Shown piece after piece: positions 19,601 through 23,391 of a DNA stretch of 64,000 nucleotides (positions are counted from its first letter, which is position 1; every line of letters starts with the position of its first letter). The notes beneath the pieces were generated by a model. It was not told the DNA's origin. It ran no database searches and was given only the letters and a program-made list of their open reading frames with translations. Origin of the DNA: Chloracidobacterium sp. CP2_5A (GTDB taxonomy: Bacteria > Acidobacteriota > Blastocatellia > Chloracidobacteriales > Chloracidobacteriaceae); assembly GCA_002254845.1 (NCBI GenBank), contig NKPT01000003.1, positions 1-64,000 of the forward strand, read 5' to 3'. A program made the position numbers and the translations under genes.

Positions 19601-20671
19601 CTAAGGCTTGCGCGCTTGGTAGAGAACGTGCCCGCGCCGCTCGACCTTGCGGGCGTCCGTAAAGCCAAGCTGCTGGAAAACATCGAAATACTCATCCTGA
19701 CGCTTGAACGTCATCATCGCCGGGTCAACGCCGACGCTGGTGAGGAAGTGCGCCAGATAGTCATAATTCGCCAACCCGCGCTCGTCGCGCAGGAGCATGT
19801 CAGCGACGATCACCCGTCCGCCCGAAGACAGCGCCGCGTAGGCCTTGCCCAGGAGCATGGCGCAGACCTGCGCGCTAAACGGGTACAGAATCCGCGCAAA
19901 AAGGACGGCGTCGCAGGCGGGGTAAGGATCGCGGTACATATCAAGCGCCACTGGCGCGATGCGGTCGGCAAGGCCATGGGCGGCGATGTTGTCGCGCGCG
20001 ATGTCGAGCGCCGAAGGCAGATTGATCAGCGTGATGCGCTCCAGGCGCGGAAACCGCTTGGCCAACGCGATGGCAATATCGCCGTTGCCGCCGCCGACAT
20101 CCAGAAGCTGGGTCGCGCCGTCCAAGTCGGCTTCCTCGACCAGCAAAGCGCGAACAAAGTGGTTGTTGCTGCGGTGGATTTCCTCGTAAAAGGCGCTGTC
20201 CTCGCGGGTCTTGGGCGGCCAGGGCGTCAGCGCCGTGAAGTCCATCTCGCCCCGAATGACCTTGGCCAGATGAACATGATACCGCTCCATAATCGTGACG
20301 GCGTAACGGACAAACGGCTCCATCGTGAGGTTCTCGTTGCCCGGATGCGGCGGCAGGAAAAACTGGCGCGCAAAGGGCGTCAGCGTCAGCCGCCCCGCGG
20401 CGTCCTTGGCGAGCAACTCCATTTCAACGAGCATGTCCGTGAACTTGACCAGCCGATTGGGGCGACTGCCGGTTGCGGCGGCCAGCGCCTCGACCGACTG
20501 CGGCTGGTCGGCCAGATGGGTGAAAAGATCCAGCTCGTACGCGGCCTTGAGGACAAACATATCCACCGTGCCGCGGTAGGTCATATCGCACGCGCGCAAG
20601 TACTGCTCATAAAGCGCGTCATCAAGCACATCCGTCACAGGCTCGGCGACCGCCGGGAGCGGGTTCAACAT
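19601..20671 (-). CDS. bchU: Bacteriochlorophyllide C-20 methyltransferase
   Basis: A 356-residue SAM-dependent methyltransferase with an N-terminal dimerisation/winged-helix domain and a C-terminal Rossmann domain. The SAM motif is LLDVGGGNGDIAIALAKRFP (D191 region). The segment WPPKTREDSAFYEEIHRSN (151-169) closely matches the corresponding part of Chlorobium BchU as I remember it (PPVTREDNLYFEEIHRSN), as do LVEEADLDG and the C-terminal third. BchU methylates the C-20 meso position to give bacteriochlorophyll c or e for chlorosomes. The ATG at 20671 has AAGGAG upstream; an earlier ATG at 20710 lacks one. It has its own terminator. Plant-type O-methyltransferases are the alternative, but the similarity is specific. 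Confidence 0.85.
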   Translation of the reverse strand: MLNPLPAVAEPVTDVLDDALYEQYLRACDMTYRGTVDMFVLKAAYELDLFTHLADQPQSVEALAAATGSRPNRLVKFTDMLVEMELLAKDAAGRLTLTPFARQFFLPPHPGNENLTMEPFVRYAVTIMERYHVHLAKVIRGEMDFTALTPWPPKTREDSAFYEEIHRSNNHFVRALLVEEADLDGATQLLDVGGGNGDIAIALAKRFPRLERITLINLPSALDIARDNIAAHGLADRIAPVALDMYRDPYPACDAVLFARILYPFSAQVCAMLLGKAYAALSSGGRVIVADMLLRDERGLANYDYLAHFLTSVGVDPAMMTFKRQDEYFDVFQQLGFTDARKVERRGHVLYQARKP

Positions 20672-20754
20672 GGGAAAACTCCTTGGCTGAGCTAAAGAAA
20701 TGACCGGCATCGGATGACGCCTTTTCCAAGGTACAAAAACAGACGCGGATGCGC

Positions 20755-20760
20755 TATGCT
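20755..20760 (+). promoter_or_regulatory. Possible -10 element of the small membrane protein gene
   Basis: TATGCT is the best -10-like hexamer in the 154-bp divergent region between bchU and the 35-codon gene. The hexamer 17 bp upstream (TACAAA) is a poor -35. A weak prediction. Confidence 0.25.
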
Positions 20761-20825
20761 TGTTCTGTAGATTCGCGACAGAGCGCGTTCCCCGCTCGAA
20801 CGCATCCTAAAGGAGGAGCAACGCC

Positions 20826-20933
20826 ATGACCGCTATTCTGCTAGCTTGCTTGTTCGTTCTCGGCGGCTACGCGGCGCTGTGGGGCATTATCCAGCTCGTC
20901 GTCGCCAACACGAAGGACATCGCGGCGAACTAA
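20826..20933 (+). CDS. 35-residue single-helix membrane protein
   Basis: A short gene with an excellent ribosome site (AAAGGAGGAGC, 7 nt before ATG 20826) and a TAA stop. The product starts MTAILLACLFVLGGYAALWG and continues IIQLVVANTKDIAAN. It is one uninterrupted membrane helix of about 24 residues with a polar, slightly charged C-terminal tail and no charge at the N-terminus. It is divergent from bchU and followed by a hairpin. I do not recognise it. Small one-helix proteins are common accessory subunits of photosynthetic and respiratory complexes (PshX in the heliobacterial reaction centre, for example), so its place beside bchU is suggestive but proves nothing. Confidence 0.7.
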   Translation: MTAILLACLFVLGGYAALWGIIQLVVANTKDIAAN

Positions 20934-20958: not shown

Positions 20959-20993
20959 CGCGCCGGTCTGGGGATTTCCAGCCCGGCGCGTTT
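20959..20993 (+). terminator. GC-rich hairpin after the small membrane protein gene
   Basis: CGCGCCGG (20959-20966) pairs with CCGGCGCG (20983-20990), with an inner CTGG/CCAG pairing, followed by TTT. It lies 26 bp after the stop codon. The short T run makes it a moderate terminator candidate. Confidence 0.5.
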
Positions 20994-21463: not shown

Positions 21464-22711
21464 CTAATTCACCACGTAGAGGTGAAAGCCGCCGTATATG
21501 GCGAAACGATCCTCGGCGAAAAGCGCGATGGAGCGCTCGCGCTCATACCGGACGCGCGCCCGCAAATCCGGCGGCAAGGCGGCATCCACGGGCGAAGCTT
21601 CCGGGGCCGAGCGGAAAATCACCCGCGAGCCCGGCGGCGCCACCCGCGTCACTTCCCGCCAGAGCGCGGCGATTTCGTCATCCTTCATCCAGTCTTGCGA
21701 ATCAAGAAACACGAAGCGGTCGTAAGCGCCAGCTGGCTGCTTGCGCAAGTGCGCCGTCAGCGAGGCGACTTCCGTCGTTACTCGCGGCGCGTTGGCGCGC
21801 AGCGTCTCGAAGTGTTCCGGCTTCAGGTACTCAGGGATCGCCCGGCGATGCTCGGTGTCGTAGCGACGCGTCAGCGCCTGCCACGCAAAGTAGTTTTCCT
21901 CAATGGGAAAATCGCAGACAAAGCGCCGCACGCGCCGGCGATACATAGCCAGAATGTTTTCCGGCGTCTCGCGGCGCATGGCTTCATACTGACGCGGCGG
22001 AATGCCCAAGCCAAAAACGATGAACGGCAGCTTCGAGAGCGAGCGCACTAGCCAGTGATCAAAATAGCGGCCAATGGTTTCGTCAAACGCCTGTCCGCGC
22101 TCGACCGGGTCCGTCAGCCGCGTCAGGCGGTCGGGATAAATGCCCATCAAGTGGGCGAGCTTTTCCAAAAAGCGGAGATAGAAGCCATTGCGCGCGTGGT
22201 CGTAGAGATTGTCGGCGAAGAAGTGCACGCGCCGCTTCCCGAACATCGTCAGACCTTCCCAAAAGGCGCGCGTCGCGTCGTCGAGATGGGCGCTCAAATA
22301 GGTATCGTAGGCCTTGACGTTGCGCAGGTCATTGGCCTCGCCGAACATCCGAAAAAACGACTCATAGTCCGGCAGGTGGCGCGCCGCGGCGAGCTTCAGC
22401 CGCAGCAGCGCCAGGTGATAGCGGTTTAGGTCCACGGCCGTGATATGCGCCGGGCCGCAGACAAGGTAGTTGAGGACGTTGCAGCCGCCGGAGGAGATGG
22501 TCAGGATTCGACTTTCCGGCGTCAGCTCCAGCGCGGCGAGGTCAACTCGCGGGTCTTCCCAAATCTGGTTATAGACAAACGCATCGAAGTAAACCGTAAA
22601 GAGCCGCTCTAGCAGCCCCTGCTTCGAGGTGATGGGGCTTTGGTGAACCGCCGCGCGGAGCAGTTGGGCTGTATCAGCTGTATCAGTTGCCACAGCTATG
22701 TGCCTCGCCAA
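21464..22711 (-). CDS. btaA: BtaA-like S-adenosylmethionine:diacylglycerol 3-amino-3-carboxypropyltransferase (DUF3419)
   Basis: A 415-residue DUF3419 protein. Family features include the open motif near the SAM site, RILTISSGGCNVLNYLV, then VDLNRYHLALLRLKL, the segment FFADNLYDHARNGFYLRFLE, and the late motif FVFLDSQDWM. BtaA moves the 3-amino-3-carboxypropyl group of SAM onto diacylglycerol, the first step of betaine-lipid (DGTS-type) synthesis at the membrane. It begins 5 bp after the stop of the methyltransferase gene, apparently at a TTG; no good ATG lies nearby. The pairing with a BtaB-like methyltransferase is the classical bta arrangement. Confidence 0.85.
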   Translation of the reverse strand: MARHIAVATDTADTAQLLRAAVHQSPITSKQGLLERLFTVYFDAFVYNQIWEDPRVDLAALELTPESRILTISSGGCNVLNYLVCGPAHITAVDLNRYHLALLRLKLAAARHLPDYESFFRMFGEANDLRNVKAYDTYLSAHLDDATRAFWEGLTMFGKRRVHFFADNLYDHARNGFYLRFLEKLAHLMGIYPDRLTRLTDPVERGQAFDETIGRYFDHWLVRSLSKLPFIVFGLGIPPRQYEAMRRETPENILAMYRRRVRRFVCDFPIEENYFAWQALTRRYDTEHRRAIPEYLKPEHFETLRANAPRVTTEVASLTAHLRKQPAGAYDRFVFLDSQDWMKDDEIAALWREVTRVAPPGSRVIFRSAPEASPVDAALPPDLRARVRYERERSIALFAEDRFAIYGGFHLYVVN

Positions 22712-22716
22712 AACGT

Positions 22717-23391
22717 TTAGGATGCGCGCCCCGCCGCGCCCGGCGCCAGCGTTTCAAAAAGCGCGATAAAAGCATAGCGCCCGCCCACCGCCTCAACCGT
22801 AAGCTTTCCCTCGCCCTGCTCGCGGCGGGCCGCGAGATCGTCGAGAATTTCCGGGCGCGGCGTCACGTCAAAGCGCCGAACCCACGCTCCCAACAGCTTT
22901 TCAAACCAAGCCGGCAACTCCTTCTGATCCCAGAAGTCCACCATAGCCAGGCAGCCGCCGGGGCGGAGATTCGCCAGGGCGGCGGCGACGGCCGCCCGCC
23001 AATCGGGAATCATCGAGAGCGAGTAGGAAAAAAACGCGATGTCGAAAGGCGCCTCAAGCCCGAAAATCGCCTGGCGATCGAGCGCTTCAGCGGCGGCAAC
23101 CGCGACCGCGACGTTGTCCAGTCGGCGACGGCGAATGTTGGCGCGGGACGCGATGAGCATTTCGCTAGAGATGTCCACGCCATAAAACCGCGCCTGCGGG
23201 TGGCGGTTCCCCAAGATGACCAGATTGCGCGCCGTGCCGCAGCCGATTTCAACGACGCGCGACCCCGGACGAACCGGCAGGCGCTCCAGCAGGGTGTCGC
23301 GCCCAAATAAAAAGTACTTGCGGGATAGGTCGTAGATGTACCGCTGCCGCCGATACATCGCGTCCATTTTCGCGGCGTGAGCGTTTTTCAT
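22717..23391 (-). CDS. btaB: BtaB-like SAM-dependent N-methyltransferase
   Basis: A 224-residue class I methyltransferase. It has SAM motif I VVEIGCGTARNLVILG, an acidic residue at the end of strand 2 in FYGVDISSEML, and post-motifs FDIAFFSYSLSMIPDW and GGCLAMVDFWDQ. The N-terminal MYRRQRYIYDLSRKYFLFGR is characteristic of BtaB, which adds three methyl groups to the amino-carboxypropyl headgroup to give the betaine lipid. It is immediately upstream of the btaA-like gene on the same strand. If btaA were wrongly assigned this would only be called a generic methyltransferase. Confidence 0.83.
   Translation of the reverse strand: MKNAHAAKMDAMYRRQRYIYDLSRKYFLFGRDTLLERLPVRPGSRVVEIGCGTARNLVILGNRHPQARFYGVDISSEMLIASRANIRRRRLDNVAVAVAAAEALDRQAIFGLEAPFDIAFFSYSLSMIPDWRAAVAAALANLRPGGCLAMVDFWDQKELPAWFEKLLGAWVRRFDVTPRPEILDDLAARREQGEGKLTVEAVGGRYAFIALFETLAPGAAGRAS

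Follow-up and report, generated by a model that had tools for sequence, protein, structure and literature searches.

Does the short open reading frame lying beside bchU encode a protein and, if so, what would that protein do in the photosynthetic apparatus of its host? The window, i.e., the whole stretch of 64,000 nucleotides analysed here, carries at positions 20826 to 20933 of the forward strand a frame that reads MTAILLACLFVLGGYAALWGIIQLVVANTKDIAAN and ends with a TAA stop (35 codons). The first-pass annotation had presented it as a gene with a strong ribosome site whose product, made of one membrane helix and a polar tail, could be a small subunit of the reaction centre, of the antenna or of a bc1-like complex. 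We report that the frame is very likely pscU, which encodes a 35-residue peripheral one-helix subunit, presumably of structural role, of the homodimeric type I reaction centre.

A 35-codon gene divergent from bchU

The frame is preceded by the Shine-Dalgarno sequence AAAGGAGGAGC, read directly at 20809-20819 of the forward strand, and its GGAGG is separated from the ATG by 9 nt. All seven copies of the genus retain this GGAGG, and the sister-genus ATG also has a GGAGG nearby. The product exhibits a single hydrophobic stretch, with a best 18-residue Kyte-Doolittle mean of 2.19, and a polar tail, TKDIAAN. Both the ribosome site and the helix-plus-tail architecture described in the first-pass annotation are thus confirmed. 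ATG frames of 25 to 60 codons bearing a Shine-Dalgarno sequence and a hydrophobic segment of at least 1.4 were sought throughout the 64 kb, and pscU was the only one. When the window was randomised 20 times with a first-order Markov model, no comparable ORF arose at the hydrophobicity threshold of 2.0 applied there. Because the frame is the sole one of its kind in the 64 kb, because the randomisations yielded none and because intact orthologs with mostly synonymous changes are found in seven other genomes, it stands above chance expectation. We conclude that the frame at 20826-20933 is a genuine gene.

Its divergent neighbour is bchU (19601-20671, reverse strand; TIGR02716), which encodes bacteriochlorophyllide d C-20 methyltransferase, the enzyme that methylates bacteriochlorophyll c for the chlorosome. 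The BchU protein scores 354.6 bits against TIGR02716, above the curated NCBIfam cut-off of 276.1. Translation of bchU likely starts not at the mechanically called ATG at 20710 but at 20671, where the ATG comes with an AAGGAG of its own. The two genes adjoin divergently in every genome checked, including that of the sister genus, which bears out the arrangement initially described.

Further along the window, the reverse strand encodes a DUF3419 protein (21464-22711; PF11899, E = 2.8e-96), a family to which the betaine-lipid enzyme BtaA belongs. It also encodes, after the DUF3419 gene, a SAM methyltransferase (22717-23391) that could be BtaB. Since the reaction-centre structure of C. thermophilum includes four betaine-lipid (DGTA) molecules (PMC9751088), this pair of genes may supply a lipid bound to the reaction centre. 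The betaine-lipid-type pair (21464-23391) was not found beside bchU-pscU in the relatives checked.

Match to a chain of the reaction-centre structure

A phmmer search of PDB chains aligned residues 1-35 of the pscU product with residues 1-35 of 7vzg_E (also 7vzr) at E = 1.7e-17. Identity amounts to 33 of the 35 residues, the differences being confined to positions 23-24 (Q-L in this protein, K-F in chain E), and this single-sequence search returned no other credible PDB match. A profile built from eight orthologs retrieved 7vzg_E at E = 6.4e-26 and nothing besides it below E = 0.2. Chain E, whose molecule name is 'PscE', has 35 residues and occurs as four chains across two entries, 7VZG and 7VZR, which are two Chloracidobacterium thermophilum reaction-centre structures determined by Dong et al. 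in 2022 (PMC9751088). The copy found in a complete Chloracidobacterium genome (G005), MTAILLACLFVLGGYAALWGIIKFVVANTKDIAAN, is the PDB chain letter for letter.

Dong et al. reported PscU, PscV and PscW as three new single-helix subunits, present in two copies each and recognised by the fit of side chains to the density (PMC9751088). The table of a 2024 review lists them at 35, 36 and 45 residues, respectively, with functions given as unknown, and attributes one transmembrane helix to PscU (PMC10968294). PDB chain E is very probably the published PscU because a length of 35 residues designates PscU alone in that table, and because the helix count and the copy number (four chains over two entries) agree as well. 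'PscE' seems to be an earlier name of PscU. As it stands, the PDB name of chain E in 7VZG and 7VZR differs from the published one and is also that of another protein, PscE of green sulfur bacteria.

Judged from their alignment, the pscU product is an ortholog of the chain modelled in the reaction-centre structure. Comparison with the chains of that structure, among which chain E matches the product end to end, hence supports the reaction centre among the complexes that had been put forward. The protein itself is already known, PscU having been published in 2022 and being a chain in the PDB. The host genome carries pscA, whose product matches 7vzr_A over its 865 residues, as well as fmoA. Among the small hydrophobic ORFs of the window, the pscA region and the bchU region, no further convincing candidate was found for PscV or PscW.

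Distribution and conservation of pscU

An intact pscU frame was detected in 7/7 Chloracidobacterium genomes examined (94-100% identity), and an ortholog was detected in one sister-genus genome of the same family (66% identity). The initial interpretation is therefore not refuted by the content of other genomes of the genus. Within the family, an intact ORF is present in all eight FMO-bearing genomes and in neither of the two FMO-less genomes, where the search gave only fragments that lie in long frames, contain a stop or cover half of the query. A profile search across the phylum (297 genomes) produced matches at E < 1e-20 in Chloracidobacterium only. The remaining matches, with E values of 0.002-0.01, were fragments inside long frames or interrupted by stops and were taken as chance. 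A degenerate DNA pattern of pscU had three matches in the genome collection, all within the group formed by Chloracidobacterium and the sister genus. Wherever the family is phototrophic, sister genus included, PscU accompanies the photosystem.

Changes among the intact orthologs of the genus are mostly synonymous. When the copy studied here is compared with the six other genus copies, dN ranges from 0.01 to 0.03 versus 0.45 to 2.2 for dS, and second codon positions show no difference at all. That the frame arose by chance, or is a leader or attenuator piece for something else, as its shortness and its position in an intergenic gap might suggest, is virtually untenable: the match to 7vzg_E refutes it since an orthologous product is seen in a cryo-EM structure, the protein is conserved with synonymous changes, and no same-strand downstream gene is near enough for the ORF to lead.

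The JAAFHI010000046.1 record (L012/L008/G007) goes under the title 'Actinomycetota bacterium'; its pscU and bchU genes are acidobacterial, its contig name includes 'WN_Acidobacteria', and fmoA is present in the genome. The record would seem to be mislabelled and to come from a phototrophic acidobacterium in a sister genus to Chloracidobacterium.

The intergenic region and the pscU transcript

Alignment of the bchU-pscU gap across the genus uncovered a conserved block of 44 bp (20726-20769), in which 75% of the columns are invariant in the genus versus 35% for the whole aligned gap. Its core, GTACAAAAA, and the GCGCTA persist in the sister genus. The core forms an imperfect inverted repeat, CGTACAAAAAC...GCGCTA...GGTTTTGTA, which is perfect in the sister genus (GTACAAAA/TTTTGTAC). 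The block is probably the divergent promoter/operator region of bchU and pscU. An operator shared more widely by photosynthesis genes is not supported because no second copy of the block exists in the genome at up to 3 mismatches, because no repeated site was found for the exact inverted-repeat form and because the pscA-operon stretches, in G005 as in the genome studied here, lack the TACAAAA/TTTTGTA motif. Co-regulation of bchU and pscU through the 44-bp block seems rather doubtful to us; if true, it would link chlorosome pigment tuning to the assembly of the lineage-specific PscU.

A small 5'-leader hairpin of pscU, GAGCG-CGTTCCC-CGCTC, is tentatively predicted by RNAalifold (six pairs) at 20781-20797 of the forward strand, just upstream of the Shine-Dalgarno sequence. 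One of its pairs is changed on both sides, from C-G to U-A, in 2/7 sequences, and the loop contains a GTTCCCC that does not vary within the genus.

Folding of the region downstream of pscU placed another hairpin, a probable transcription end, at 20959-20990 of the forward strand. The first-pass annotation had mentioned a hairpin after the gene; it is indeed present, but weak when this genome is taken alone, with a z-score of -0.66 (no more stable than shuffled sequence) and a poor U-tract, and it was not among the terminators called by the scan. Far stronger hairpins of different sequence occupy the same place in five of the seven relatives (L002, L003, L005, L006 and L008; z = -2.1 to -6.2), and no clear one was seen in L004 and L007. 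The downstream hairpin thereby recurs in 6/8 genomes, this one counted, and the pscU transcript probably ends there. We envision pscU as its own short transcription unit, which would start in the region shared with bchU and probably end at this hairpin.

Proposed role in the reaction centre

In the published structure, PscU occupies regions II/III as two symmetric copies, one per side, each placed peripherally next to PscA helices 4, 5, 6, 7 and 8 (PMC9751088). We infer that PscU most likely plays a structural part, each complex having two such peripheral helices set against PscA helices 4-8. The ortholog alignment reveals a conserved GGYA-x-LWG segment, with small residues at positions 13, 16, 17 and 20. 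Based on conservation rather than coordinates, we predict that the small-residue face made of G13, A16, A/G17 and G20, which comprises the small-xxx-small pairs 13/17 and 16/20, packs on PscA. The invariant residues Y15, L18 and W19 would join this packing. Located on the antenna side of PscA, the helix would enlarge and stabilise the core and may give other membrane proteins a contact surface. Since histidine is absent from all eight orthologs, PscU itself would not be expected to ligate chlorophyll.

Such a contact surface could even be the main purpose of the subunit, PscU then docking a membrane partner lost in purification, e.g., the carotenoid-binding protein or another membrane complex. 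Dong et al. consider it likely that the peripheral subunits serve as an interface towards other membrane proteins, and they propose the recruitment of additional antenna proteins (PMC9751088), yet the conserved neighbourhood of pscU points to no partner. We regard docking as a possible but minor contender beside the structural helix.

For a subunit published from cryo-EM density, the gene, its start codon, its regulatory surroundings and its species range are now fixed. What is added, namely the gene model, its conservation, its co-occurrence with the photosystem, the presence of an ortholog in another genus, the conservation of the pairing with bchU and the 44-bp block, is modest. The analysis reveals no new kind of protein, and its small novelty is limited to the genomic setting. 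With a fixed gene model, a gene-removal test of pscU becomes straightforward to design.

Comparison with known systems

PshX of heliobacteria (5V8K), to which the first-pass annotation had likened the product, is likewise a very small peripheral subunit with one helix, and its homodimeric type I reaction centre carries it twice. It has been reported as a low-energy antenna (PMC10968294), and the shared size, helix number, copy number and peripheral position would suit a PscU acting as an antenna or pigment organiser by binding, or tuning, a (bacterio)chlorophyll or carotenoid at the periphery. However, PscU has neither a histidine in any of its eight orthologs nor a reported pigment, and the antenna (B)Chls are placed in 'each PscA' (PMC9751088). 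Neither the single PscU sequence nor the profile matched any 5V8K chain at E ≤ 10, sensitivity being limited at 35 residues. The parallel with PshX consequently stands for size and copy number but probably not for antenna function or ancestry. We judge a PshX-like antenna role less likely, and indeed improbable, and retain PscU as a peripheral structural helix.

In green sulfur bacteria, a related reaction centre likewise includes accessory membrane subunits, PscE and PscF (Q8KDI3 and Q8KG87 in Chlorobaculum tepidum). These differ from the two-copy PscU in occurring once each and in being linked to the attachment of FMO; there are four helices in PscF, and charged residues abound in PscE (PMC9529944). 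In the PDB copy that was searched, PscU matched none of the chains from green sulfur bacteria at E ≤ 10; the Q8KDI3 chain is presumed to be part of that copy. The name 'PscE' common to both lineages is a naming collision and not shown homology.

The low-molecular-weight one-helix subunits of photosystem II offer, in their peripheral placement around the core, the case most like that of PscU (PMC9751088), a likeness by position only. PscU of C. thermophilum (7VZG/7VZR chain E) shares with the protein studied here its 35 residues, an end-to-end alignment and the lineage, and differs from it by the two substitutions at positions 23-24. In G005, whose copy equals the PDB chain, the gene occupies the same location divergent from bchU as it does here.
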